Part shown: positions 14,564-40,639 of the stretch, piece by piece
Layout of the letters: the number at the start of each line of letters is the position of its first letter
How positions within the stretch are numbered: position 1 is the stretch's first letter
Notes under the pieces: generated by a model
Told to the model about the DNA's origin: nothing
What the model saw: only the letters and a program-made list of their open reading frames with translations
Database searches by the model: none
Assembly (NCBI GenBank): GCA_036000965.1
Contig: DASYUT010000253.1
Span: forward strand, 1 to 64,000
Direction: 5' to 3'
DNA: 64,000 bases
Origin: Actinomycetes bacterium
Lineage (GTDB): Bacteria; Actinomycetota; CALGFH01
Translations under genes and position numbers: made by a program

Positions 14564-14938
14564 CTAGATCGTCCGCAGGCCGGCCAGGACCCGCTCGAGC
14601 AGGACGAGGTCGGGGCGCCCGCCGGAGCTCGCGGGTCGGTGCACGATCACGAGCCGCTCGTTGGCCATGTCGCTGACAAGGATCTTGGCGACGCCGAGAG
14701 GCAGGTCGAGGCAGGCGGAGATCTCAGCGACCGACAGCACGTCCCGGCACAGCATGGCGATCGAGCGCCGCTCGAAGCCGAGCGACGGCGCCGTGGCCTC
14801 GCCGTGGGAGGAGGTCGTGACCAAGGTCTCCAGCTCGAGGTCGTCGCGCTGGGAGTGGGTCCGGCCTCCGGTCACCGCGTAGGCGCGGACCAGGCGGCTC
14901 GGCCCCTCCGAGCTGTCGGCGCCGCCGGTGCTGCTCAT
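14564..14938 (-). CDS. DUF742 conservon protein (CvnC-like)
   Basis: A 124-residue protein of the DUF742 family. It has RLVRAYAVTGGRT near the N-terminus and a helix-turn-helix-like core (SVAEISACLDLPLGVAKILVSDMA) ending LLERVLAGLRTI. DUF742 proteins are the C component of actinobacterial conservons, in which a CvnA kinase, CvnB roadblock protein, CvnC and CvnD GTPase form a membrane complex. Here it follows the kinase directly by 48 bp. No roadblock or GTPase gene lies between or after them. Confidence 0.9.
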   Translation of the reverse strand: MSSTGGADSSEGPSRLVRAYAVTGGRTHSQRDDLELETLVTTSSHGEATAPSLGFERRSIAMLCRDVLSVAEISACLDLPLGVAKILVSDMANERLVIVHRPASSGGRPDLVLLERVLAGLRTI

Positions 14939-14986
14939 CGCGCGTCCTTCTCCTCGCGACCAGGGGGCCGGGCGACCCGTGCCCGG

Positions 14987-17386
14987 CTAGTGCGGCATGT
15001 CATGCGCGCTCCCGGGGAGCAACGGGTCGGAGGGGTCGGCTGCGGGCTGGGTGTGCTGGTCTCTGGTCGCCTCCAGGCGGCCGTGCCGGAGACCGGCCCG
15101 GTAGCTGGTGAGCATATTCCGGATGTCGTCGGGCGAGCGGGTCAGCCCAGACGGTGGCGGTGGCGGCTGCGCCGTCGGCTGGGCCGTGGTGGCCAGCCCG
15201 GGAGCGAGATTCTCCTGCGGGGTCCTGCGCGGCAGGGCGCTCTCGGACATCTTCTCGGGTCGCAGCGGTGGGTGCGTGGTGGCCCAGGCACCGCCCTGGA
15301 ACCACTCCGACCGGGCCGCCTCGAAGATCGGCAGGTCGCCGCCGCGACCGACGCTGGCCATGGCCGGCGCGGGCGGCGGCGGGAGCTGCGCGAGGCGGCT
15401 GTCCTGCGGGAACTCGCCGGCCTCGGTCATTGACAGCTGGGTCGCGCCCGGCTGGGTGAGCAAGCCCGGCGGGATCAGCACCAGCGCGGTCACGCCCCCG
15501 TACCAGGAGTGCCTGAGCTGGACCTTGATGCCGTAGCGCTGCGCGAGGCGGCTGACCACGAAGAAGCCGAGCAGACGCGACAGCGCGAAGTCGATCATCG
15601 GCGGGTTGGCGAGGCGCTCGTTCGCTGCGGCCAGCTGGTCGTCGGTCATGCCGATGCCGCAGTCCTCGATCTCGAGCAGGTGCCCGTTGGGCATGGCCTG
15701 CCCGGCGATCTTCACCGGCGTCTCCGGAGACGAGAAGGTCGTGGCGTTCTCGACCAGCTCGGCGAGCAGGTGCACGACGTCGTTGACCGCGTGGCCGGAG
15801 ACCTGTACCTCGTCGACCGTGATCTGCTGGACCCTGGTGAAGTCCTCGACCTCGGAGATGGCCGCGCGAATCACGTCGGCGAGGGGGACGGGCTCGCTCC
15901 AGCGTCGCGCGGACTCGGCGCTTGAGAGGACGATCAGGTTCTCGGCGTTGCGCCGCATGCGGGTCGCCATGTGGTCGAGCTGGAAGAGCTTCGCGAGCTC
16001 GTCGGGGTCGGTCTCGTCGCGCTCCAGCTCCTCGATGAAGTTGAGCTGCCGGTCGATCAGGCGCTGACTGCGCCGGGCCAGGTTGACGAACATGTCGCCG
16101 ATGCTGCGGCGCAAGGCGGCCTGCTCGGTGGCGACGCGAGTCGCCACCTGGTGCACGGAGTTGAACGCCTCGGCCACCCGGCCGATCTCGTCCTTGGATC
16201 TGATCGGCACCGGTTCCGCCTGCATGGCGGCGAGGTCGACCTCCTGGGCCTGCTGCAGGCGTTCGACCACGCCGGGGAGCTGCTGCTCGGCCACGTCGCG
16301 CGCGCTCCGCTCGAGGAGCTCCAGCGGTCTCGCCATCGAGCGGGCCATCAGCAGCGAGAAGCCGATCGTCGCCTCGAGCACGATGATTGTCAGGAAGAAC
16401 GCGACCGTGGCGCGGTTCTCCGTGCTGGTCCGCACCGACCCGGCAAGCTTCCCCACGTCGCCGGCGAGCTTCTGCTCGACGGCGCGAAGCAGGTCGATCT
16501 TGGCCCGGGCGGAGAAGAACCAGTCGGTGGCGTCGTTGAAGCCGGCCAAGTCGGGGGTGTTCTTGAGGTCGTGGACAAGGTCGTGAGAGTCCTGGGCAGC
16601 GATCGCGGCGTCGTGGATGGCAGTTGCGCGGTTGACGTCTGGCCCCTTGACGGTGTGGTCGAAGAACTCGGTCTGCTCGGTGGCGGCGGTCGCGCGGAAC
16701 TGCTTGCGCCAGGCGCTCTCCTCACCGGTGGCGGTGGTGAAGTCCGCATACTGCGTGCCGACGAACCGGCCGCCCGCCAGGGCCGCGAACAAGATCCCCT
16801 GCTGCTCGGACGCGGCCTCCTTGAGCCGGGAGACGGCGGTGAAGGTGACCAGGTTGCGGGCCAGGTTCCGGTCGGAAGTCTGAGCATCGATCTCGTTGTG
16901 CAACAAGAGCAGGTCGCCGATGACCTGGTTGTAGTACTCGGCGACGTCCTTCACCGACCCGGCTTCCTCGAAGGCCCTCCGCTGGTATCCCTGCGCCTTC
17001 GGGTTGACGAGCTGGTCCGCCCTGGCCACCGTCGCGGTCAGCTGGGCGCGCAGGCGCCCACTGAAGATGTCGAGGTCGAGCTTGGCGAACTCGGCGTCGA
17101 GGGCGCGCTTCGCCTGGTTGGTGATGACCCGGTCCGCGAGCATCGTGCTGCGATAGTGCCGGCGGCTGCTGCCGACGTAGCCGAGCGTGATCCCCCGCTC
17201 CAGCTGCGCGGCGTCGACCATCCGGATCAGCGCCGGCATGAAGTGGCTGATGTCGTTCACGCCACGGGCCTCTTTGCTGTTGCGGGAGGTGGAGATGACC
17301 TGCGACGAAGCGAAGACCGCGAGTGCCGCCAGCGGGAGGATCAGCAGGCTGACGATCTTCGACCTGATTGTCAGATTCTCGAGCAT
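14987..17386 (-). CDS. NIT-domain sensor kinase (CvnA-like)
   Basis: A 799-residue membrane kinase. Helix 1 is at about 11-30; an extracytoplasmic NIT (nitrate/nitrite-sensing type) domain covers about 50-310; helix 2 is near 328-350; a HAMP region follows. The dimerisation region ALRRSIGDMFVNLARRSQRL and LDHMATRMRRNAENLIVL carries the candidate acceptor His. The ATPase domain has LAELVENATTFSSP and EDCGIGM. The last 150 residues are Pro/Gln-rich and disordered. AAAGGG precedes the ATG. Together with DUF742 it makes half of a conservon. NIT ligand identity is not predictable from the sequence. Confidence 0.9.
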   Translation of the reverse strand: MLENLTIRSKIVSLLILPLAALAVFASSQVISTSRNSKEARGVNDISHFMPALIRMVDAAQLERGITLGYVGSSRRHYRSTMLADRVITNQAKRALDAEFAKLDLDIFSGRLRAQLTATVARADQLVNPKAQGYQRRAFEEAGSVKDVAEYYNQVIGDLLLLHNEIDAQTSDRNLARNLVTFTAVSRLKEAASEQQGILFAALAGGRFVGTQYADFTTATGEESAWRKQFRATAATEQTEFFDHTVKGPDVNRATAIHDAAIAAQDSHDLVHDLKNTPDLAGFNDATDWFFSARAKIDLLRAVEQKLAGDVGKLAGSVRTSTENRATVAFFLTIIVLEATIGFSLLMARSMARPLELLERSARDVAEQQLPGVVERLQQAQEVDLAAMQAEPVPIRSKDEIGRVAEAFNSVHQVATRVATEQAALRRSIGDMFVNLARRSQRLIDRQLNFIEELERDETDPDELAKLFQLDHMATRMRRNAENLIVLSSAESARRWSEPVPLADVIRAAISEVEDFTRVQQITVDEVQVSGHAVNDVVHLLAELVENATTFSSPETPVKIAGQAMPNGHLLEIEDCGIGMTDDQLAAANERLANPPMIDFALSRLLGFFVVSRLAQRYGIKVQLRHSWYGGVTALVLIPPGLLTQPGATQLSMTEAGEFPQDSRLAQLPPPPAPAMASVGRGGDLPIFEAARSEWFQGGAWATTHPPLRPEKMSESALPRRTPQENLAPGLATTAQPTAQPPPPPSGLTRSPDDIRNMLTSYRAGLRHGRLEATRDQHTQPAADPSDPLLPGSAHDMPH

Positions 17387-27871: not shown

Positions 27872-29230
27872 CTAGGCCAGGATGCGCAGGGGCTCTTCGA
27901 GGATGGCCTTGAGATCGGCGAGGAACTGCGCGCCGGTGGCGCCGTCCAGGGCGCGGTGGTCGATGGACAGGGTGAGCTTCATCCGCTGGCGGGTGGCGAG
28001 CTGCCCGTCGCGGAGGACCGGCTCGGAGGTGGTCGCACCCACGGCCAGGATGGCGGCCTCAGGCGGGTTGATCACGGCGGTGAACTGGTCGATGCCGAAC
28101 ATCCCCAGGTTGGAGATCGTGAAGGTGCCGCCGGTGAACTCGTCGGGGCGGAGCTTGCCGGCGCGGGCCTTGTCGATCAGCGCCTTGGCGTCCCGGGAGA
28201 TCTGGCTGACGCTCTTCTGGTCGGCGTCGCGGACCACGGGCACGATCAGGCCGCCACCCACGGCGACGGCGATGCCGACGTGGATGCGTCGGTGGCGCAG
28301 GATCTTGTCGCCGGCCCAGGAGACGTTGATGTCCGGGTGGGTGCGCAGCGTGACCGCGCATGCCCTGACCAGCAGGTCGTTCACTGACAGCTTGGTCCCC
28401 TGGTCGGCCAGCCGCTGGTTGAGCTCGGCGCGCAAGCCGAGCAGCGCGTCGGCGTCGACCTGGATGGTCAGGTAGAAGTGGGGTGCTGACTGCATGCTCT
28501 CGACCAGCCGGCGGGCGACCGTCTTGCGCATGCTGGTGAGCGGGATCTCCTCCACGTCCGCCGCGGCCGCGGCAGGAGCGGCAGCGGGCGCGGGCGCGGC
28601 AGGCGCGGCGGCAGCGGGCGCGGCAGGAGCGGCGGCGGCGGCAGGAGGCGGCGCGGCCGCGGCCGGGGGGGGCGGGGCGGGGGTGGCCCGGCCGCCGTCG
28701 CTGGCCGCCAGGGCCTCGACGTCGGCCTTCACCACCCGGCCACCGGGGCCGCTGCCGGTGACGGTGGACAGGTCGATGCCGTGCTCGCGGGCGATGGCGC
28801 GGGCCATCGGCGAGGCCTTGACCTGCTGCTCGCTGGCAGGGGCGGGGGCCTCGCCCGTCGCCGGCGGGACCGGCTGGGCGGTGGCCGCGACGGTGGTCTC
28901 CACCTCCGGGGCGGTCTCGATCGCCGCGGCCGTCTCGGCTGGCGATGCCGGCGCTGCCTCGGCGGGGGCCGCAGGGGAGGCGGCCGCGCCGCCGTCGCCG
29001 GTGCCGATGAGCGCGATCGGCTGGCCGATCGGGACAGTCTCCCCCTCCTGGACCAGGATCTGCTGCAGCACCCCCTCCTCGAAGGCCTCGAGCTCCATCA
29101 CGGCCTTGTCGGTCTCGATCTCGGCCAGGATGTCGCCCCGTTGCACCTGCTCGCCAGGCTGCTTCAGCCAGGCGGACAGCGTGCCCTCCTCCATGGTGTC
29201 GGACAGGCGCGGCATGATGATCTCGGGCAT
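27872..29230 (-). CDS. Dihydrolipoamide acyltransferase (E2)
   Basis: A 452-residue E2 core of a 2-oxoacid dehydrogenase complex. The lipoyl domain is at 1-75 with Lys42 in ETDKAVMELEA. A long Ala/Pro hinge follows, with a peripheral-subunit-binding domain (SPMARAIAREHGIDL, about 136-170), a second Ala/Pro linker and the catalytic domain. Catalytic His425 and Asp429 are in DHRALDG. It transfers the acyl group from E1 to CoA. It is the last gene of the lpd-CBS-E1alpha-E1beta-E2 run, 14 bp after E1beta. Confidence 0.95.
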   Translation of the reverse strand: MPEIIMPRLSDTMEEGTLSAWLKQPGEQVQRGDILAEIETDKAVMELEAFEEGVLQQILVQEGETVPIGQPIALIGTGDGGAAASPAAPAEAAPASPAETAAAIETAPEVETTVAATAQPVPPATGEAPAPASEQQVKASPMARAIAREHGIDLSTVTGSGPGGRVVKADVEALAASDGGRATPAPPPPAAAAPPPAAAAAPAAPAAAAPAAPAPAAAPAAAAADVEEIPLTSMRKTVARRLVESMQSAPHFYLTIQVDADALLGLRAELNQRLADQGTKLSVNDLLVRACAVTLRTHPDINVSWAGDKILRHRRIHVGIAVAVGGGLIVPVVRDADQKSVSQISRDAKALIDKARAGKLRPDEFTGGTFTISNLGMFGIDQFTAVINPPEAAILAVGATTSEPVLRDGQLATRQRMKLTLSIDHRALDGATGAQFLADLKAILEEPLRILA

Positions 29231-29244
29231 GGTCGCGCACCTCC

Positions 29245-30237
29245 CTAGCGGGCACCGGACGCGTCGAGCGTCTCGTGGATGACCTTGACCAGATGATCGG
29301 CGTTGGGCAGGGCGGCCAGCTCCAGCGGCTTGGCATACGGCAGCGGGACCTCGGCCGCGGCCACCCGGCGCACCGGGGCGTCGAGGTAGTCGAAGGCGCC
29401 CTCGGCGATGGTGGCGGCGATCTCGGCGCCGACCCCGTAGGACAGCCAGTCCTCCTCCATGATCACGGCGCGGTTGGTCTTGCGGACCGAGGCCACGACC
29501 GTGTCGCGGTCCAGCGGCCGCAGGCTGCGCAGGTCCACCACCTCGGCGCTGATGCCCTCCTCGTCCTCCAGGCGGCGGGCGACGTCGAGAGCGACCTTGG
29601 CCATGCGGGAGTAGGCCACGATCGTCAGGTCGCTGCCCTGCTTGACGACCTGGGCGCGGCCGAACTCGACGGTGTAGTCACCGTCGGGGACCTCGCCCTT
29701 GGTGTTGTACAGGGCGAGGTTCTCGATGAAGATCACCGGGTCGTTGTCGCGTACGGCGGTGCGCAGCATGCCGCGGACGTCGGCCGGGGTGGCCGGGGTG
29801 ACGACCTTGAACCCGGGGACGTGCGCGTACCAGACCTCGAGGTTCTGGGAGTGGGTGGCCGCCAGCTGCTGGCCGCCGCCGCCCGGGGTGCGCAGCACCA
29901 TTGGCACCGGGGTCTGCCCGCCGAACATGCCGTGGATCTTGGCCCCGTGGTTGACCAGCTGGTCCAGGGCCAGGATCGAGAAGTTGATCGTCATGATCTC
30001 CACGATCGGCCGCAGCCCGAGCATGGCCGCGCCGATCGCGGCGCCGACGAACCCTTCCTCGCTGATCGGGGTGTCGACCACCCGTTTGGGGCCGAACTCG
30101 GCCAGCAGCCCCGCGGTGATCTTGTAGGAGCCCTCGAAGACCCCGATCTCCTCACCCATCAGGAAGACGTCGGGGTCGCGGAGCAGCTCCTCGCGCAGCG
30201 TGTCGTGCAGCGCCTGGCGGTAGGTCATCACGGCCAC
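29245..30237 (-). CDS. pdhB: 2-oxoacid (pyruvate) dehydrogenase E1 beta
   Basis: A 330-residue E1 beta subunit. Family landmarks are FLMGEEIGVFEGSYKIT, DTPISEEGFVGAAIGAA, PGGGGQQLAATHSQ and VVDLRSLRPLD. It binds thiamine diphosphate together with the alpha subunit and feeds acyl groups to E2. The GTG is 4 bp after the E1 alpha stop; an ATG three codons later is possible. Family sequence fits pyruvate better than branched-chain substrates, but this is not certain. Confidence 0.93.
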   Translation of the reverse strand: MAVMTYRQALHDTLREELLRDPDVFLMGEEIGVFEGSYKITAGLLAEFGPKRVVDTPISEEGFVGAAIGAAMLGLRPIVEIMTINFSILALDQLVNHGAKIHGMFGGQTPVPMVLRTPGGGGQQLAATHSQNLEVWYAHVPGFKVVTPATPADVRGMLRTAVRDNDPVIFIENLALYNTKGEVPDGDYTVEFGRAQVVKQGSDLTIVAYSRMAKVALDVARRLEDEEGISAEVVDLRSLRPLDRDTVVASVRKTNRAVIMEEDWLSYGVGAEIAATIAEGAFDYLDAPVRRVAAAEVPLPYAKPLELAALPNADHLVKVIHETLDASGAR

Positions 30238-30241
30238 GGGA

Positions 30242-31348
30242 TCACATCACCTCCACGCTGTGCGGGGCCGAGGCCACCACTGGGTCGCCGGGCAGGCCGC
30301 GCGGCTCGTTGGCGACCGGGGTGGCGTAGGCGTCGGCGAACAGGTCCTCGACGCTCGGGTCGGGGCTTTGGTCGGCGAAGTCGATGGCCTGGGCCACCTC
30401 GCGCTCCACCTCGGCCTCGAGCTCGGCCGCGCCGGTCTCGTCCAGCACCCCGGCGGCGACGAGCCGGGCGCGAAACGCTGGCACCGGGTCGCGGGCCCGG
30501 CCGCGCTCGACCTCCTCATTGGCGCGGTAGCGGGCCGGGTCGACCACCGAGTGGCCGCGCATCCGGAAGCTGGTGGCCTCCAGCAGCGTGGGGAGCGACT
30601 CGGTGCGGGCCCGGTCCACCGCCCGCCGGGCGGCGTCGCGCACCGCGAGCAGGTCGTTGCCGTCCACGCGCTCGCTGGCCATGCGGTACGCGCAGGCCCG
30701 CTGGTACAGCTCCGGCTCGGCCGAGGCCGCCTCCACCGTGGTCCCCATGCCCAACAGGTTGTTGACGATCACGTACACGATCGGGAGCTTCCACAGCTGG
30801 GCCAGGTTCAGGCACTCGTGGAAGGCCCCGGTGTTGGTCGTGCCGTCACCCATCTGGCACATGACCACCTCGTCCGAGCCCCGGTAGGCGATCGCCTGGG
30901 CGGCGCCGGTCGCCAGCGGGATCTGCCCACCGACGATCGCGTACCCGCCGAGCAGGCGCGCACTGGCGTCGAACAGGTGCATCGAGCCGCCGCGACCGTG
31001 CGACACGCCGGTCTGCCTGCCGAACAGCTCCGCCATCACCCGCCCGGGCTCGATCCCCTTGGCGAGCGCGTAGCCGTGCTCCCGGTAGTTGGTGAACAGG
31101 TAGTCACGCGGCTCCAAGGCGGCCAGCAAGCCGACGACGGTGGCCTCTTCACCGAGGTTGAGGTGGCAGTAGCCGCCGATCTTGGCCCGCTGGTACATCT
31201 CGCCGGTGCGCTCCTCGAACCGGCGCATCAGCCACATCATCCGGTAGTAGTCGACCAGGACGTCCGGCTTCTCGTCGGCAAGCGCGTCCGCCGCACGCTG
31301 TGGCTTCCGGCTGCGCCTGCGTGGTGGGGCTTTCTCGTCAGTCGCCAT
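30242..31348 (-). CDS. pdhA: 2-oxoacid (pyruvate) dehydrogenase E1 alpha
   Basis: A 368-residue E1 alpha subunit. The thiamine diphosphate motif starts at Gly167-Asp168-Gly169 (GDGTTNTG) and ends Asn197 (VIVNN). The substrate-side loop is HGRGGSMHL. The phosphorylatable-loop region reads RMRGHSVVDPARYR. ATG 31348 follows AGGAGGAGG; an upstream Met adds seven residues without a ribosome site. The basic N-terminus (PPRRRSRKPQR) is unusual but common in actinobacterial homologues. It heads the E1alpha-E1beta-E2 block. Confidence 0.94.
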   Translation of the reverse strand: MATDEKAPPRRRSRKPQRAADALADEKPDVLVDYYRMMWLMRRFEERTGEMYQRAKIGGYCHLNLGEEATVVGLLAALEPRDYLFTNYREHGYALAKGIEPGRVMAELFGRQTGVSHGRGGSMHLFDASARLLGGYAIVGGQIPLATGAAQAIAYRGSDEVVMCQMGDGTTNTGAFHECLNLAQLWKLPIVYVIVNNLLGMGTTVEAASAEPELYQRACAYRMASERVDGNDLLAVRDAARRAVDRARTESLPTLLEATSFRMRGHSVVDPARYRANEEVERGRARDPVPAFRARLVAAGVLDETGAAELEAEVEREVAQAIDFADQSPDPSVEDLFADAYATPVANEPRGLPGDPVVASAPHSVEVM

Positions 31349-31384
31349 CGCGGTCCTCCTCCTTGTCACCGGCCGCCCCCGGCG

Positions 31385-31852
31385 CTACTCCCCCGGCGGC
31401 TGCTCCTGCCGGGTGAAGCGCTCGGTGGGCTGGCCGCACCGTGGGCACTGGTCGGGCGGCTGCTGGCCGCGGACCGGCTCGCCGCAGACCTCACAGGTCC
31501 ACTCCAGCGCCAGCAGCTCGACCAGGTCGGAGCGGCTGACGATCCCGACCAGCTGCTGCCCGGCCAGGACCGGCACCCGCCGGATCCGCATGTCGACCAG
31601 CAGGGCGCGGACGTGCTCGACGTCGGTGTCCTCGGTGACGCTGATGACCGTCGGCGACATGAGCTCGCGCGCGGTCGCGCCCTGCTTGACCAGCAGGTCG
31701 TACTCGCTGACCAGCCCCACCACCGCGCCGGCTTCGTCAGTGACCGGGACGCCGCTGATCTTGTGCCTGGTGAGCAGCTCGGCCACGTCCGCGGTCGGGG
31801 TGTCGGGCCCGGCGGCGACGACCGGCGTCGTCATGATCTCCTTGACCTTCAC
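31385..31852 (-). CDS. CBS-pair protein with zinc ribbon
   Basis: A 155-residue protein. Two CBS domains (about 1-58 and 62-115, with VTDEAGAVVGLVSEYDLL and VLAGQQLVGIVSRSDLV) form a Bateman module that usually binds adenine nucleotides. A C-terminal zinc ribbon has Cys120, Cys123, Cys136 and Cys139. It sits between lipoamide dehydrogenase and E1 alpha in the same operon. An energy-charge sensor acting on the complex is a reasonable inference; no direct evidence is available. Confidence 0.9.
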   Translation of the reverse strand: MKVKEIMTTPVVAAGPDTPTADVAELLTRHKISGVPVTDEAGAVVGLVSEYDLLVKQGATARELMSPTVISVTEDTDVEHVRALLVDMRIRRVPVLAGQQLVGIVSRSDLVELLALEWTCEVCGEPVRGQQPPDQCPRCGQPTERFTRQEQPPGE

Positions 31853-31918
31853 GCTTCACACCTCCGTGAGATCGACCAGGCCGTGACCATCGTGGGAGCG
31901 ACCAAGCCGTGACAAGGG

Positions 31919-33424
31919 CTAGCGGCGGCGGGGTGGGGCGGTGTGCACCGGCAGGCCGAGCGCGACCATGGCCGCCTCCATCGACCCCTCCCCCAGGGTG
32001 GGGTGGGCATGGACGGTGTCGGCGATGTCGGCAAGCGTGGCCTCCAGGTGCATGGCCAGCACCCCTTCGGGAATCAGGTCGCTGGCGCTGGGCCCGATGA
32101 TGTGCACGCCCAGCACCTCGCCATACTTCCGCTCCGCCACGACCTTGACCAGCCCCTCGGTCGACCCGTAGGTCTGGGCGCGGCCCAGCGCGGAGAACGG
32201 GAACCGGCCGACGACCACGTCGTGGCCAGCCTGGGTGGCCTTGGCCTCGGTGAGCCCCACGCTGGCGACCTCCGGGTGGGTGAAGGTCGCGGCCGGGATG
32301 GCCTTGTAGTCCATGCGCTCGTGGCGGCCGGCGATCACGCCAGCGGCAACCAGCCCCTGGTGGCTGGCCACGTGGGCCAGCAGCACCCTCCCGGTCACGT
32401 CCCCGATCGCGTGCACCCCCGGCACGCTGGTCCGCAGCTGCTCGTCGACCTGGACCCAGCCCTTGGGGTCGGTCGTCACCCCGGTGCGCTCGAGGTCGAG
32501 CCCTTCGGTGTTGGGCCGGCGGCCGACCCCGACCAGCACCACGTCCGCCTGGGCCTGCTCGGGGTTGCCCCCGTCCGGGTCGGCGATGGTGACCCGCAAC
32601 GGCCCGCTCCGCTTCCCTCTGCCCGCATGGGCGATCTCGGCGACCGTCCTGCCCGTCTGGACCCTGATGCCCCGCTTGGCGAACGAGCGCTCGAGGGTCT
32701 TGCCCATGTCGGCGTCCTCGGCCGGGAGCAGCGTCGGCAGCAGCTCGACCAGGGTCACCTGGGCACCGAAGGCGTGGAACATCGTCGCCCACTCGGCACC
32801 CACCGCGCTGGCGCCGATGATCACGATGCGCCGCGGCACCTCGCCGAGCAGGAACGCGCCGTCGGAGGTGACCACCCCGGGCAGGTCGATCCCGGGGATC
32901 GGCAGCAGCACCGGCGTCGAGCCGGTGGCGACGATCACGTTGCGCCCCTCGAGCCTGGCCTGCGGCTGGCCGTCGGGCGCGGGCGGCGCGTTGTACAGCG
33001 GCCCGCCCGCACCGAGCGTGGAGGGGCCGACGCCGACGACCTCCACCGTGGTCGGCCCGACGAAGCGCGCGTGCCCGCTCACCACCGTGACCCCGTTGGC
33101 CTTCAGCAGCCCCGCCACGCCGTCGGTGAGCCCCTTGACGATCTTCTCCTTGCGCTTGAGCACCGCCGAGTAGTCCAGCCGCACGTTGTCGGCCAGCACG
33201 CCGAACTCGGCGCTGTGCTGCATGGTCTCCAGCACCTCGGCCGAGCGCAGCATCGCCTTGGTCGGGATGCACCCCCAGTTCAGGCACACCCCGCCCGGAC
33301 GCTCCTTCTCGACCAGCGCGGTCCTCAAGCCCAGCTGGGCCGCGCGGATCGCGGCCGGGTACCCGCCCGGGCCACCGCCAACGACCAGCAGGTCGAACGC
33401 CTGCTGCTCTGCCTGCTCGGCCAT
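31919..33424 (-). CDS. lpdA: Dihydrolipoyl dehydrogenase (E3)
   Basis: A 501-residue flavoprotein. The FAD motif is VVGGGPGGYPAA. The redox disulfide is Cys47/Cys52 (GGVCLNWGCIPTK). The NAD motif starts IIGASAVGAEWA. The C-terminal catalytic His-Glu region is VHAHPTLGEGSMEAA. It reoxidises the lipoyl arm of E2. It is the first gene of the operon with the CBS protein and E1/E2, which fixes its role in this complex. Confidence 0.95.
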   Translation of the reverse strand: MAEQAEQQAFDLLVVGGGPGGYPAAIRAAQLGLRTALVEKERPGGVCLNWGCIPTKAMLRSAEVLETMQHSAEFGVLADNVRLDYSAVLKRKEKIVKGLTDGVAGLLKANGVTVVSGHARFVGPTTVEVVGVGPSTLGAGGPLYNAPPAPDGQPQARLEGRNVIVATGSTPVLLPIPGIDLPGVVTSDGAFLLGEVPRRIVIIGASAVGAEWATMFHAFGAQVTLVELLPTLLPAEDADMGKTLERSFAKRGIRVQTGRTVAEIAHAGRGKRSGPLRVTIADPDGGNPEQAQADVVLVGVGRRPNTEGLDLERTGVTTDPKGWVQVDEQLRTSVPGVHAIGDVTGRVLLAHVASHQGLVAAGVIAGRHERMDYKAIPAATFTHPEVASVGLTEAKATQAGHDVVVGRFPFSALGRAQTYGSTEGLVKVVAERKYGEVLGVHIIGPSASDLIPEGVLAMHLEATLADIADTVHAHPTLGEGSMEAAMVALGLPVHTAPPRRR

Positions 33425-35238: not shown

Positions 35239-35254
35239 ATGGCGCAAGTACTAA
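34988..35254 (+). CDS. Possible leader protein before the monooxygenase operon
   Basis: An 88-residue Pro/Arg-rich frame. ATG 34988 has GGGAGG at 7 bp spacing, and the stop lies 16 nt inside the C-subunit gene, so the two could be translationally coupled. It has no recognisable domain and low complexity. A non-coding leader is equally likely. Confidence 0.3.
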   Translation: MTAGRGRRSVVVLARVHGPVEPRGSLPQPEPSDSLLSGPGDGGARWAPASTRAQDRLPAAPQAARPPPVSQHAAQRPRRRKEQAWRKY

Positions 35255-36060
35255 CGCCCACGGCCGACGAGCGGGTCTCGAGCGAGCGTCCCGGCAGGGG
35301 GCCGATCGACTGGCTCGGAGGCTGGCGCACCTGCATCGTGGGCTGCGTCGTCTTCTTGCTGCTGGCCATCGCGATCCGCATCTTCCAGCAGTTCACCGCC
35401 TGGACGATCGGGATCGACTCGGCCAGCCGCGACTTCGGCCTGTACTACCGCAGCCTGTTCGTGGCCGAGGTGGTGGGGGTCACGGTCGCCACGCTGTGGT
35501 GGTGGGGCGGCCTGGTCAGGCGGGGCCGCACGGCGGTCAACAAGAAGATCACCCACAGCGAGGAAGTCCGCCGGATCGCGGTCTTCTGGGGCCTGGTCGG
35601 CACCACCTGCGTGATCCTGTACATCATGGCCAGCTTCTGGCCAAACCAGGACGGCGCCTGGCACCAGACGGCCGTCCGGGACACCGCCCTGACGCCCGCC
35701 CACATCCCGATGTTCTTCCTGTTCTTCCCGCTCGGGATCACCTTCACGGTGGGGACCTACCTGTACGGGCGGTACTGGCTGCCGAAGGTCTACGGGGCCG
35801 AGAAGGGCTTCCCCTGGTCGTTCTTCCTGCTGATCGCCGCGTCGGTCACCGAGATGATGCAGGTCGCCATGAACGAGTGGGGCCACAGCCTGTGGATCAC
35901 CGAGGAGATCTTCGCGGTGCCGTTCCACTGGCCGTTCGTCTTCTACGGCTGGCTGGCGGCCGGCATCTTCGCCCTCTGGGCCGAGACGCTCGTGCGCCTG
36001 CTCCAGATCGAGGGCGAGATCGAGCAGCAGGCGACGGAAAGGGAAGAGGAGGTCGCATGA
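35239..36060 (+). CDS. pmoC/amoC: Copper membrane monooxygenase subunit C (PmoC/AmoC family)
   Basis: A 273-residue membrane subunit with about six helices. Both metal sites known from PmoC structures can be read with the right spacing. Asp138-x3-His142-x12-His155 (DGAWHQT and LTPAHIP) corresponds to the CuC site. Asn212-x3-His216-x13-His230 (MNEWGHSLW and AVPFHWPF) corresponds to the CuD site. GAGAAAGGAA precedes the ATG. It is the first gene in the order C-A-B that is conserved in this superfamily. Known actinobacterial relatives (Mycobacterium and Nocardioides hydrocarbon monooxygenases) oxidise short alkanes and alkenes; substrate here is unproven. Confidence 0.95.
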   Translation: MAQVLTPTADERVSSERPGRGPIDWLGGWRTCIVGCVVFLLLAIAIRIFQQFTAWTIGIDSASRDFGLYYRSLFVAEVVGVTVATLWWWGGLVRRGRTAVNKKITHSEEVRRIAVFWGLVGTTCVILYIMASFWPNQDGAWHQTAVRDTALTPAHIPMFFLFFPLGITFTVGTYLYGRYWLPKVYGAEKGFPWSFFLLIAASVTEMMQVAMNEWGHSLWITEEIFAVPFHWPFVFYGWLAAGIFALWAETLVRLLQIEGEIEQQATEREEEVA

Positions 36061-36222
36061 CCCGCTGAGGGGAGGGCCGGAGCCCTCCCCTCGGGGGACC
36101 ACCCGGGAGCACCACGTCCCGCCGCGGGAACCGAAGCTGCGACGGCGACCGTGACGCGGTTCACGGTCTGCCTCGGCCGAGCGCCGCTTCGAGGTCGGGT
36201 TCGAGAGTGGGAGGCACAACAG
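36061..36222. other. 162-bp C-A spacer
   Basis: A comparatively long spacer inside an otherwise tight operon. It contains CCTCCCCTCGGGGGACC-like inverted DNA near 36080-36100 that could form a small hairpin and tune expression of A relative to C. No gene is seen. Confidence 0.4.
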
Positions 36223-36987
36223 GTGGCGACGGACGCGAAGACGCTCGAGCTCCGTGAGCTCGTGAACAAGAAGTACAAGTACATCGACCGGAAATGGGAT
36301 GCGGTCTTCTGGATCACCGCCGCGTTCGTGGTGGGGGCGGCCGCAGACATCACCAAGCAGCTGTTCGCCGGCGACTGGGACTTCTGGACCGACTGGAAGG
36401 ACCGGCAGTGGTGGCCGATCATAACGCCGTTCGCGATCATCATCATCGGGTCGGCCCTGCAGTACATCCAGTGGCTGGCGTGGCGCTTCCCGACCGGGAT
36501 GACCTACACGGCGGTCTGCCTGTTCGTCGCCACGCTGGTGGGTAGATGGGTCCAGTGGGGCGCGTTCGTCTACTACCCGATGAACTTCGTCTGGCCGGCG
36601 ACGATGGTGGCGGCGGCGATCTTCGCCGACTGGGTCTTGTTGAAGACAAAGAGCTTCGTCCTGACGTCGATAGTCGGCTCGATGTTGTTCGCGCTGACCT
36701 GGTGGATATCGAACTACGTCCCACTCGCGCCCTTCCTGCAACCGGCGCAATGGATGGACCGGGTGGTGACGGTCGCCGACATCCAGGGGATCGAGTACGT
36801 CAGGAGCCAGACGCCCGAGTACCTGCGGATCATCGAGCACGGCTCCCTGCGCACCTTCCTGGGAGAGACCCAGTACGTCTCGCTGGTGTTCGGGGCGACC
36901 GTCGCGGTCGGCGGCTACTGGGTCGGGCAGTTCATCGGCAGAGGGTTGGCCATCTGGCCAATCGGCCGCTTCATGAAGAAGTGGTGA
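36223..36987 (+). CDS. pmoA/amoA: Copper membrane monooxygenase subunit A (PmoA/AmoA family)
   Basis: A 254-residue membrane subunit with about seven helices. The family hallmark GDWDFWTDWKDRQWWP is near 50-65; TPEYLRIIEHGSLRTF corresponds to the conserved segment near the C-terminus of PmoA. The DNA at 36370-36387 is GGCGACTGGGACTTCTGG, an exact match to the A189f pmoA primer, while the usual reverse-primer motif AFFSAF is replaced by VFGATV. A GTG at 36223 is chosen over an upstream GTG because GGGAGG precedes it and length then matches the family (about 247-255). Confidence 0.95.
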   Translation: MATDAKTLELRELVNKKYKYIDRKWDAVFWITAAFVVGAAADITKQLFAGDWDFWTDWKDRQWWPIITPFAIIIIGSALQYIQWLAWRFPTGMTYTAVCLFVATLVGRWVQWGAFVYYPMNFVWPATMVAAAIFADWVLLKTKSFVLTSIVGSMLFALTWWISNYVPLAPFLQPAQWMDRVVTVADIQGIEYVRSQTPEYLRIIEHGSLRTFLGETQYVSLVFGATVAVGGYWVGQFIGRGLAIWPIGRFMKKW

Positions 36988-37015
36988 CCCGACGGTAGAG
37001 GAAGGAGGTCGTACG

Positions 37016-38245
37016 ATGCTTCGCCGATACCGCCGCTACCTTTGGGCCGTCCTCGTCGCGGGCGCGCTCGTGGTGTCGTCCGCGCCGGCCGCGAACGCCC
37101 ACGGCGAGCGCGCCCAGGAGGCGTTCCTCCGGATGCGCACCGTCGGGTGGGTAGACGTCACGTTCTCCAAGGACACCGTCAGGCAGGGCGAGACGCTCAC
37201 CGTCACCGGCACGGCCAAGATCCTTGACGCGTGGCCGACCAACCTGGCCAAGGGCAACCCCAACACCGGCTACATGGCAGTGATCGCGCCGGGACCGGTG
37301 GTGATGCTCAAGGAGCGGACCATCAACGGCGAGTCCGCGCCCAGCCGGATCGACATCCAGAAGGGCAGGATCTACGAGTTCAGCATGACCATCGCCGGGC
37401 GGCGGCCCGGCCGCTGGCACGTGCACCCGTCCTTCTCGGTCAAGGGCGCCGGGACCCTGCTCGGGCCGGGCCACTGGATCACCGTCAAGGAGAACCCCGA
37501 CGGCTTCACCAACGACGTGAAGCTCGTGACGGGCGGCACCGTCAACCTCGAGAACTACCAGCTAGGGTTCACGTGGATCTGGCTGATCCTCACCTTCCTG
37601 ATCGGCCTGGCCTGGATGATCTACTGGACGGTGCCGAAGCGGACGGTCACCAACCTGGCCGTCACCAGCCAGATCCCCCTCAACACCGACGGGATGGCGT
37701 ACGGGCTCATCACCAAGAAGGACCACCGCAACATGAACTGGTTCGCCATCGGCACCGCGCTGCTGCTCCTGGCCGGGTGGCTGTACCAGGCGAACGCGTT
37801 CCCGACGAAGATGCCGCTGCAGGTGATCCAGTTCGCGCCGCCGCAGCCCGCCATCGCCGAGGAGCCCGTGTTCGCCAAGGCGGAGGGGGCCGACGCCGGG
37901 GCACGGTACGACCCGGCCACCAAGACGATGACCATGGACGTGAACGTCACCAATACCGGCACCGCGCCCATGGAGCTGAAGCAGTTCAACGCGGCGTACC
38001 TGGGGTTCAAGGCCGGCACGACGCCCGGGCCGGGCGTCGTGACCGTGACGCCCGGGGCCACCGTCGAGCCGGGGGCGACCACGAGGCTGACGTTGACCAT
38101 GAAGGACCCGGCCTGGGAGAACGAGCTCCTGGTGCCCATCGGCGAGTCGCAGCTCCTGGTCACCGGCATCATGGTGTTCGAGAACACCGAGGGCAAGCGG
38201 AACCTCACGGAGGTGGAGGCAAACCTGCAGCCAAGGTTCGCATAA
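37016..38245 (+). CDS. pmoB/amoB: Copper membrane monooxygenase subunit B (PmoB/AmoB family)
   Basis: A 409-residue exported subunit. The signal peptide (about 1-28, ending SSAPAANA) leaves His29 as the first mature residue, as in PmoB. His29 with His135 and His137 (GRWHVHPSF) make the CuB site, so it is intact. Two cupredoxin-like domains flank two transmembrane helices (about 182-203 and 240-260). GAAGGAGG precedes the ATG. The C-terminal cupredoxin (VTNTGTAPMELKQFN) matches family architecture. It completes the C-A-B complex. Confidence 0.95.
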   Translation: MLRRYRRYLWAVLVAGALVVSSAPAANAHGERAQEAFLRMRTVGWVDVTFSKDTVRQGETLTVTGTAKILDAWPTNLAKGNPNTGYMAVIAPGPVVMLKERTINGESAPSRIDIQKGRIYEFSMTIAGRRPGRWHVHPSFSVKGAGTLLGPGHWITVKENPDGFTNDVKLVTGGTVNLENYQLGFTWIWLILTFLIGLAWMIYWTVPKRTVTNLAVTSQIPLNTDGMAYGLITKKDHRNMNWFAIGTALLLLAGWLYQANAFPTKMPLQVIQFAPPQPAIAEEPVFAKAEGADAGARYDPATKTMTMDVNVTNTGTAPMELKQFNAAYLGFKAGTTPGPGVVTVTPGATVEPGATTRLTLTMKDPAWENELLVPIGESQLLVTGIMVFENTEGKRNLTEVEANLQPRFA

Positions 38246-38274
38246 CACGGGAAACCTGGGGAACACAGGGACGC

Positions 38275-38463
38275 ATGAGCGGGTCGATGCTTGCGCACGG
38301 AGGAGGACTGGCGGCCTTTGACGAGGCCGTCATCCTCTTCCTGTTCCTCGCGCTGGGCATCGGCATGGCCCTGGTCCTCAAGGCGGCCACCAACACGAGC
38401 ACGGAGAACGACGACGACGCGGACGCCGAGGGCGCGGACGCCGAGGGCGTGGAGCAGTCATGA
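38275..38463 (+). CDS. Small membrane protein 1 of the monooxygenase operon
   Basis: A 62-residue protein with a short outside tail containing LAHGG, one helix (AVILFLFLALGIGMALVL) and a strongly acidic tail (DDDADAEGADAEGVEQS). It starts 29 bp after the B subunit and overlaps the next small gene by 4 bp. Actinobacterial hydrocarbon monooxygenase operons have a short fourth gene (hmoD/bmoD); whether this is an orthologue cannot be decided here. It could be an accessory subunit or copper-loading factor. Confidence 0.75.
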   Translation: MSGSMLAHGGGLAAFDEAVILFLFLALGIGMALVLKAATNTSTENDDDADAEGADAEGVEQS

Positions 38464-38735
38464 GCGGCATCCTCGCGCACAGCGGGGTGATGGCGGGCAG
38501 CCACACCCTGCTCGTGTTCCTCCCCTTCATCCTGGCCGGGGCCGGCCTGGGGTTCATCGTCATGGCGGTCAACGACAAGGTCGACGCTCGGCCAGACGAC
38601 GGGTCGGTGCGCCTGCCGACCTCGAAGGAGCGGCCGCTGTATCACCTTCACATGCAGATCAGGGCGGGGGGCAAGGACGAAGACCCCGCGCGCGAGTCGG
38701 GGCCCGCCGTCGTGAACCTGCCACGCCGACGGTAG
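38460..38735 (+). CDS. Small membrane protein 2 of the monooxygenase operon
   Basis: A 91-residue protein. Its N-terminus MSGILAHSG resembles that of the preceding protein (MSGSMLAHGG), then one helix (TLLVFLPFILAGAGLGFIVM) and a basic/His-containing cytoplasmic tail (YHLHMQIRAGG). Start and upstream stop overlap (ATGA). The shared LAH-G motif next to a single helix suggests the two genes are paralogues acting together. Function unknown; linkage points to the monooxygenase. Confidence 0.72.
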   Translation: MSGILAHSGVMAGSHTLLVFLPFILAGAGLGFIVMAVNDKVDARPDDGSVRLPTSKERPLYHLHMQIRAGGKDEDPARESGPAVVNLPRRR

Positions 38736-39134: not shown

Positions 39135-39683
39135 ATGGCAGAAGACCGAAGGGTCGAGGGAGTCTCCAGCCTGGAGCGGACGGTCGAGGCCGGCATCCTG
39201 GCCGGAATGGTGGCGGCAGTGCCGATAGGGCTTTTCGCGGCGATCGCCGCCGCGACCTACCAGCACATGGGCTTCTTCACGCCCGTGTACCGCATCGCGG
39301 CCGTCCTGGACCCCACCTCCATGCTGGTTTCGGTGCAGGAGGCCGAAACGGGCTCGCCGTTCTATTTCGATTTGCAGCCGCTGGTCGCCGGCAGCGCCAT
39401 GCATCTGACGATCGGCGGGTTCTTCGGCGTGGTCTTCGCCCTGCTCGCACGGAGCCTCGGGGTACGGGGCCCGGTCGCGATCCCGGTCGGGCTCCTCTAC
39501 GGCCTGGCGGTGATGGCGCTCATGGGCCTCCTGGTGCTCCCCCTGGTCGCCGACCTGCTCGGGGGTGGCCAGCCCGTGGCCGACGCCGCCAGCATCGTGG
39601 GCTGGCCCACGTTCACCGTCGGGCACGGGCTCTACGGGCTCACCCTCGGGGCGTGGACGGTGGCACGGCCGTGGCCGTCGTGA
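39135..39683 (+). CDS. Four-helix membrane protein of unknown function
   Basis: A 182-residue integral membrane protein. A charged N-terminus (MAEDRRVEGVSS) precedes a helix GILAGMVAAVPIGLFAAIAA, then a loop and three more helices, with TVGHGLYGLTLGAW at the end. GGAGGGCGG precedes the ATG at 39135. Its general look is that of actinobacterial membrane proteins related to YagU/DUF1440-like families, but no confident match is made. Location between the monooxygenase operon and the IclR gene suggests a possible link. Confidence 0.6.
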   Translation: MAEDRRVEGVSSLERTVEAGILAGMVAAVPIGLFAAIAAATYQHMGFFTPVYRIAAVLDPTSMLVSVQEAETGSPFYFDLQPLVAGSAMHLTIGGFFGVVFALLARSLGVRGPVAIPVGLLYGLAVMALMGLLVLPLVADLLGGGQPVADAASIVGWPTFTVGHGLYGLTLGAWTVARPWPS

Positions 39684-39766: not shown

Positions 39767-40639
39767 ATGGTGCCGGAAGGGAAGAATCCCTCAACGAGCG
39801 CAGCCGCCTCCGGGCGGGTACTGAGCACGGCCCAGCACGCCCTCCAAGCCCTCGAGATCATCGCCCAGCACCCCAAGGGCATCCCGATCAAGGCCCTGGC
39901 CCGCCGCCTGAACATCAGCCTCTCGTCGGGGTACTACCTCATCAGCTCCATGCGGGAGCAGGGCTTCGCCGAGGTCTCGCCGGCCGGGCCGGGCCTCTAC
40001 ACCCTCGGACCGAAGTTCGCCGAGCTGTACGAGGGCTACGTCGCGGCCAGCCTCCAGCCCGAGCGACTGACCCCGGTCCTCGAGGAGCTGCGCGACAAGG
40101 CGTCGGCCCGCGCCTACTCGGCGATGTGGAGCAACGGGGACCTCGAGGTGGTGGAGATCCGGGGCCGGCGCGGCGCGCGGGAGCTGCAGGACGTCACCAA
40201 GGGCTTCCGGGGTGCCGCCCACGGCCTCGCGCTCGGCAAGATCTACCTCGCCCACCTGCACGAGGACGCGTGGCCGGCGAGCCTGAGCGGGTCGAGCTAC
40301 AAGCGCTACACCCCGGCCACGATCACCAGCCCGGCCGCGCTGCGGCGCCACCTGCTCTCGGTGCGGGACAACGACCTCGCGTTCGATCTCCAGGAGTTCT
40401 CGACCGGCGCCTGCTGCGTTGCGGCGCCGGTCCGTGACGGCAGGAACGGGCTGGTGGCGACCTTGGGCATCTCGGTGCCCGCTCGACGGTTCGAGGCCGA
40501 GCAGAAGAACCTGGTCCGGGTGGTCCGGGAGCTGGCCGCCGCGGCGTCCGGGGAGCTGGCGGCGGTGACCGTCGCCTCCGCCCTGGGCGCGCAGGAGTCC
40601 AGCCAGCAGAGCCCGGGCAGCCCGGCCGGAAGCGCGTAG
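39767..40639 (+). CDS. IclR-family transcription regulator
   Basis: A 290-residue regulator. The winged helix-turn-helix (about 18-75) includes ALQALEIIAQHPKGIPIKAL and NISLSSGYYLISSM. The effector-binding GAF-like domain follows with GAAHGLALGKIYLA and FSTGACCVAAPVRDG. IclR proteins often control catabolism of aromatic or small organic acids. GAAGAAGGGGG precedes the ATG. It lies about 1 kb downstream of the copper monooxygenase operon on the same strand and is the nearest candidate regulator; this is inference from distance only. Confidence 0.9.
   Translation: MVPEGKNPSTSAAASGRVLSTAQHALQALEIIAQHPKGIPIKALARRLNISLSSGYYLISSMREQGFAEVSPAGPGLYTLGPKFAELYEGYVAASLQPERLTPVLEELRDKASARAYSAMWSNGDLEVVEIRGRRGARELQDVTKGFRGAAHGLALGKIYLAHLHEDAWPASLSGSSYKRYTPATITSPAALRRHLLSVRDNDLAFDLQEFSTGACCVAAPVRDGRNGLVATLGISVPARRFEAEQKNLVRVVRELAAAASGELAAVTVASALGAQESSQQSPGSPAGSA

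Follow-up and report, generated by a model that had tools for sequence, protein, structure and literature searches.

A complete hydrocarbon monooxygenase-type copper operon in an uncultured actinobacterial lineage

Does an actinobacterium really carry the copper membrane monooxygenase (CuMMO) operon found in assembly GCA_036000965.1, and what would its enzyme oxidize? To answer these questions, we analyzed a stretch of 64,000 nucleotides (the window; positions 1 to 64,000 of contig DASYUT010000253.1). A first-pass annotation of this stretch had described a complete CuMMO operon at positions 35239-38735. Three genes lie there head to tail on the + strand in the order C-A-B: xmoC (35239-36060; 273 amino acids), xmoA (36223-36987; 254 amino acids) and xmoB (37016-38245; 409 amino acids), encoding HmoC-, HmoA- and HmoB-type subunits. 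The start codon of xmoA is a GTG following GGGAGG and is also backed by homologues. The products matched the Pfam families AmoC (4.7e-44), AMO (9.6e-56) and Monooxygenase_B (1.3e-84), respectively, far above the cut-offs. In a PDB sequence search, they aligned over nearly their full length to solved chains of particulate methane monooxygenase (pMMO) and ammonia monooxygenase (AMO), XmoC matching PmoC, XmoA matching PmoA/AmoA and XmoB matching PmoB. Open reading frames (ORFs), Pfam and PDB alignments all bear out the earlier statement that the three genes are full length. The annotated interval is correct for xmoCAB, which ends at 38245; its remainder covers two small ORFs that had been left unmentioned.

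The copper ligands named in the first-pass annotation were recomputed from the DNA and found at exactly the residues given. XmoB has a signal peptide, after which His29 becomes the mature N-terminus, and His29, His135 and His137 form the CuB site. In XmoC, the CuC ligands are Asp138, His142 and His155, and the CuD ligands are Asn212, His216 and His230. The ligand columns of all three sites were invariant in an alignment of 26 out of 26 relatives from the hydrocarbon monooxygenase (HMO) branch (see below), and of 18 further CuMMOs, only one lacked the CuB histidines. XmoB, with Gly and Lys instead, does not have the bis-His CuA site of Methylococcus PmoB, nor does the rest of the HMO branch. 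With three subunits in one operon and all nine CuB, CuC and CuD residues present, the locus falls within the CuMMO superfamily.

The first sign that the enzyme is neither a pMMO nor an AMO came from the NCBIfam equivalog models, all of which scored below their cut-offs. The pMMO models gave 139.5, 180.6 and 215.6 bits (cut-offs 280.6, 318.15 and 394.9), and the bacterial AMO models gave 163.4, 201.6 and 282 bits (cut-offs 319, 290 and 336). A maximum likelihood tree was then calculated from concatenated C, A and B subunits (LG+F+G4, 1000 ultrafast bootstraps), a check that the first-pass annotation had called for. The window enzyme formed one group (support 100) with those of two further genomes of the same family, G001 (CALGFH010000434.1) and G002. 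Its sister was the Acidimicrobiia genome OF_bin.28 (support 100), and the group was nested (support 100) in a large clade with enzymes of Nocardioides luteus, Acidimicrobiia, Binatota and Rokubacteria. Next outward stood Alicyclobacillaceae Bu37 (JASBVN01), followed by the Mycobacterium and Rhodococcus HMOs with Smaragdicoccus (support 100), while pMMO, AMO, pxm and a second Binatota cluster lay outside this branch. Grouping with the Mycobacterium/Rhodococcus HMOs, apart from pMMO and AMO, received supports of 99-100. Single-subunit trees of A (0.91) and B (0.95) agreed with the concatenated tree; C alone was unresolved at that depth. In published trees, AR15, Binatota and JASBVN01 are also in the HMO branch (PMC8780371, PMC8262859, PMC12533140). 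Judged by its sequence, the enzyme is a further member of the already known branch of HMO and butane monooxygenase (BMO) enzymes.

The same three papers report that tested members of this branch act on C2-C4 hydrocarbons (PMC8780371, PMC8262859, PMC12533140). On the basis of these activities and of the tree position, we predict that xmoCAB encodes an HMO/BMO-type CuMMO that probably hydroxylates short-chain alkanes or acts on alkenes. The substrate, which the first-pass annotation had left open, is narrowed accordingly by the placement in the HMO/BMO branch. The complex would take electrons, probably from quinol, activate O2 at copper and convert short-chain (about C2-C5) alkanes such as propane or butane to alcohols, or epoxidize alkenes. 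Cytoplasmic alcohol and aldehyde dehydrogenases would feed the products into central metabolism. Several points weigh against this assignment. The nearest tested enzymes are only 38-41% (A) and 28-32% (B) identical, and no published CuMMO substrate was found for any member of the immediate clade. Genes for a Zn-alcohol dehydrogenase, an amidohydrolase and a DUF59 Fe-S assembly protein, which adjoin xmo in relatives (see below), are not on the window contig. A 1.47-Mb sample (23%) of the genome contained no orthologous cluster of these three genes, only weak alcohol dehydrogenase relatives. Finally, the searches for methanol dehydrogenase were run without a true positive control. In the three genomes, they yielded only partial, sub-cut-off repeat matches to the XoxF/MxaF-type model TIGR03075, and the closest relatives of an NDMA-methanol dehydrogenase query from strain NBB4 were 27% identical in the window genome and 32% identical or less in G001 and G002.

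Could the substrate instead be methane, with an actinobacterial methanotroph as host, possibly of trace methane? All catalytic copper ligands are common to XmoCAB and pMMO. Moreover, HMO-branch Binatota sometimes have methanol dehydrogenase, and their substrate has been left between methane and gaseous alkanes (PMC8262859). However, the window enzyme falls outside every pMMO clade and below the pMMO equivalog cut-offs, and the three genomes offer neither an XoxF/MxaF above cut-off nor, in the window genome, an NDMA-methanol dehydrogenase relative closer than the 27% match. In addition, Nocardioides sp. CF8 is reported to oxidize C2-C4 compounds, not methane (PMC8262859). We therefore consider a methane monooxygenase unlikely. 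An ammonia monooxygenase in a nitrifying host is very improbable. The top NCBIfam scores did come from the AmoA, AmoB and AmoC models, but they remained below the equivalog cut-offs, and the tree position is far from AMO. Hydroxylamine oxidoreductase (HAO; PF13447), part of the ammonia-oxidation gene search that the first-pass annotation had suggested, was detected in none of the three genomes, while a Nitrosospira positive control gave 2.5e-159. On this absence, obtained with a working control, a nitrifier identity was rejected. The earlier observation that no HAO or methanol dehydrogenase is nearby also held: the contig, as far as it was annotated, contained neither, in agreement with the genome-wide searches.

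There is also a small chance that the main substrates are other small molecules (ethene, propene, isoprene, ketones such as acetone, or chlorinated or plant volatiles), or that the enzyme acts in co-metabolism without growth. CuMMO substrate ranges are broad, and one article reports acetone oxidation by a pMMO homologue (PMC8630023). The alcohol dehydrogenase cluster of the sister genome G001 would be compatible with any alcohol product. Against this, no specific pointer to such substrates was seen, and epoxide-metabolism genes were not searched for.

As for the host, the operon lies near the middle of a 79,849-bp contig, in a genome of 6.47 Mb that is 99.1% complete with a contamination estimate of 4.2%. 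Because it is located mid-contig in a genome of such completeness, the operon is not edge contamination. The tetranucleotide profile of the contig correlated at 0.974 with 1.4 Mb of the other contigs of this genome. A region of 14 kb surrounding the operon scored 0.884, compared with an average of 0.890 over 53 fragments of the same genome. WhiB genes were present in the three genomes examined from this class (10, 9 and 4; the window genome has 10); among 14 control genomes, a match was obtained only in Corynebacterium. DUF742, Roadblock/LC7 and GTPase genes are encoded on the same contig (locus L014, 3584-4963), arranged in the manner of actinobacterial conservons. A second DUF742 gene of this contig stands beside a nitrate/nitrite-sensing kinase (14564-17386).

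A contaminant or mis-binned contig could be argued from the 4.2% estimate and from the presence of the enzyme clade in several phyla. It is extremely improbable in view of the mid-contig position, the matching composition of both the contig and the operon region, the conservon-type cluster, and the recurrence of the operon in G001 and G002, in the latter with the IclR gene and the small ORFs (see below) in synteny. A proteobacterial clade combined with contig-edge signs, the outcome that the first-pass annotation had regarded as fatal, was looked for and not found; tree, contig position, composition and recurrence rule out a proteobacterial origin or edge contamination. The assignment to an actinobacterial genome is backed by WhiB, the conservon-type genes and tetranucleotide usage. 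The host, an uncultured bacterium of soil type, is a genuine member of Actinomycetota with a complete CuMMO operon. Its genome belongs to the same family as the metagenome-assembled genome (MAG) CALGFH01 and to a different genus. A 2026 paper on MAGs uses the name CALGFH01 at order, family and genus rank in Actinomycetota, with paddy soil as the source (PMC13248718).

How widespread is the operon? All three genomes of the class that were examined (the window genome, G001 and G002) contain xmoB. In a phylum-wide sample of 397 genomes, the xmoB family cut-off was reached by three, all of them from this class; in Nocardioides, the gene was found in 4 of 220 genomes. The rarity in Actinobacteria asserted previously was thus borne out, yet the operon does not stand by itself, having close homologues elsewhere, among them those of Nocardioides luteus, Acidimicrobiia, Binatota and Rokubacteria. 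A collection-wide scan recovered XmoA relatives at 65-90% identity from Acidimicrobiia, Nocardioides, Binatota, "Deltaproteobacteria", Chloroflexi and Rokubacteria MAGs, beyond which identity falls to 45% or less. As far as three genomes can show, the CuMMO is shared by vertical descent throughout an uncultured, class-level lineage of actinobacteria, and it seems to be a regular feature of this little-known group.

Two side observations were made on the collected loci. Two MAG records, entered under the names Klebsiella pneumoniae and Bordetella parapertussis (L035 and L089), carry Binatota-type and proteobacterial-type CuMMO operons, and their titles look mislabelled. Two Binatota genomes have two CuMMO operons each (L027 and L053 in OX638322.1; L025 and L066 in OY282457.1), one operon of each pair being in the HMO branch and the other in the distant second cluster.

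The two small ORFs directly downstream of xmoB, here called minis, each encode a membrane protein with a single helix. Mini 1 (38275-38463, + strand; 62 amino acids) has an AHGG...DE motif and resembles ORFs beside xmoB in HMO-branch loci. Mini 2 (38460-38735, + strand; 91 amino acids) has an AHSG motif and an orthologue in G002 (phmmer 1.9e-35). Neither had a match in Pfam, NCBIfam or PDB. Across the loci compared, an ORF that encodes a single hydrophobic helix and a motif resembling A-H-[GSM]-G, mostly followed by an acidic residue, adjoins xmoB in 34 of 37 HMO-branch loci and in none of 34 other CuMMO loci (pMMO, AMO, pxm). These counts were obtained with criteria less strict than in an earlier run (23/37 versus 0/34), and the exact fraction is to be read loosely: the L017 match is doubtful, L026 and L030 were scored as missing with an ORF visible by eye, and L045 has none. 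Examples beside xmoB are located at L007 (9238-9453), L036 (6798-7058) and L037 (8060-8374). The histidine of the motif was invariant in a 17-row alignment, and the window has two copies of the ORF. In Binatota, the ORF is located between A and B (C-A-x-B) and starts like a signal peptide, AxA|HGG, so that the mature protein would begin with His, as PmoB does at CuB. These Binatota "x" genes have been recorded as hypothetical (PMC8262859).

What might the minis do? PmoD has a cupredoxin domain and conserved Cys ligands (PMC6189053), and a PmoD-like nature was ruled out for the minis, which have 62-91 amino acids, one helix and no Cys. The archaeal AMO has the extra small helical subunits AmoX, AmoY and AmoZ (PMC10030591), which provide a precedent for an additional subunit in the HMO branch. 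The two AHGG minis of the window are probably accessory subunits or copper-handling factors. We propose an AHGG mini beside xmoB as a putative signature of the HMO branch, one that the window also displays. In a limited literature search, this linkage looked unreported, a provisional statement. A more far-reaching model, possible rather than probable, is that the mini is a fourth HMO-branch subunit. Its exported AHGG...[DE] segment would bind copper or complete the complex, its presence would mark hydrocarbon as opposed to methane and ammonia enzymes, and it would be duplicated here, in a class of hydrocarbon oxidizers with the CuMMO as a core trait.

The downstream neighbourhood of the operon is conserved. 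The minis are followed on the + strand by genes for a hydrophobic membrane protein (39135-39683) and an IclR-family regulator (39767-40639), with counterparts in the same order in G002. The membrane protein matched its homologues in G002 (phmmer 4.3e-41) and in N. luteus (2.5e-16), where it is also syntenic; its DUF1440 match (0.0037) was below cut-off. The regulator has IclR_C (4.8e-24) and HTH_IclR (5.3e-7) domains and an orthologous match in G002 (phmmer 5.8e-135). Both genes are syntenic downstream of xmo in two genera, and the IclR protein is a candidate regulator that probably controls the xmo cluster.

Upstream, the loci differ. The window has a DUF4118 gene approximately 500 bp before the operon. 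In G001, xmoC directly follows an alcohol dehydrogenase gene (Zn type, C-terminal part), an amidohydrolase gene and a DUF59 gene, and in N. luteus and other clade members Amidohydro_2, FeS_assembly_P (DUF59) and Zn-alcohol dehydrogenase genes are found upstream of xmo. The trio is near xmo in at least seven loci besides G001. In clade members, it adjoins xmoC at L015 (1-2000), L017 (1-1681), L019 (2285-4997) and L037 (2282-5036). These genes resemble accessory genes of soluble di-iron propane monooxygenases. Genes for an amidohydrolase and for iron-sulfur assembly likewise characterize the clusters of soluble di-iron alkane monooxygenases (PMC9213486). This arrangement in G001 and the other loci counts in favour of the short-chain alkane prediction, as do the absence of HAO and the lack of methanol dehydrogenase matches. 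On its - strand, shortly before the operon, the window carries a 2-oxoacid dehydrogenase cluster (E1 alpha, E1 beta, lipoyl E2 and dihydrolipoamide dehydrogenase) with a CBS-domain-like ORF (27872-33424).

The consumers of short-chain hydrocarbons in air and soil are mostly unidentified. The lineage described here is a plausible sink, and its enzyme can serve as a probe. The linkage of minis to xmoB provides an easy genomic means of telling the HMO branch from pMMO and AMO, together with a candidate subunit. The weight of the finding is limited by the fact that HMO-type operons have already been reported from several phyla.

The closest known systems are those of the same family. G001 and G002 share the C-A-B order with the window, at 90-93% (A), 73-76% (B) and 81-84% (C) identity. 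G002 is also like the window in its syntenic minis and IclR gene, whereas G001 has the alcohol dehydrogenase-amidohydrolase-DUF59 genes directly upstream, in the place of the DUF4118 gene. The enzyme of Nocardioides luteus BAFB (L037) is 71% (A), 65% (C) and 45% (B) identical. Its locus has the same order CAB followed by a mini and the membrane protein, but differs in the amidohydrolase-DUF59-alcohol dehydrogenase genes immediately upstream. Strain BAFB has been described as a degrader of C8-C11 alkanes (PMC5270706).

The HMOs of Mycolicibacterium chubuense NBB4, Rhodococcus sp. ZPP and M. dioxanotrophicus resemble the window enzyme in their CAB genes followed by two small ORFs, in the AHGG mini and in their place on the same tree branch. 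Unlike it, they are plasmid-borne and show the lower identities in A (38-41%) and B (28-32%). Further differences are an NDMA-methanol dehydrogenase close by in NBB4 and ZPP, and an AMP-binding gene downstream. The pBMO of Nocardioides sp. CF8 has been described as a third, deeply branching lineage next to AMO and pMMO, one that supports growth on short n-alkanes (PMC3703597). The CuMMOs of Binatota, Rokubacteria AR15 and Kyrpidiaceae JASBVN01 are similar in copper ligands and in HMO-branch membership. All three come from other phyla, and Binatota have the mini between A and B, with a start like that of a signal peptide. Finally, pMMO, AMO and pxm enzymes share fold, subunits and the CuB, CuC and CuD ligands with the window enzyme. 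They form separate clades, whereas XmoCAB, which has no bis-His CuA equivalents and for which no methanol dehydrogenase or HAO partner was found, stands with the HMOs.

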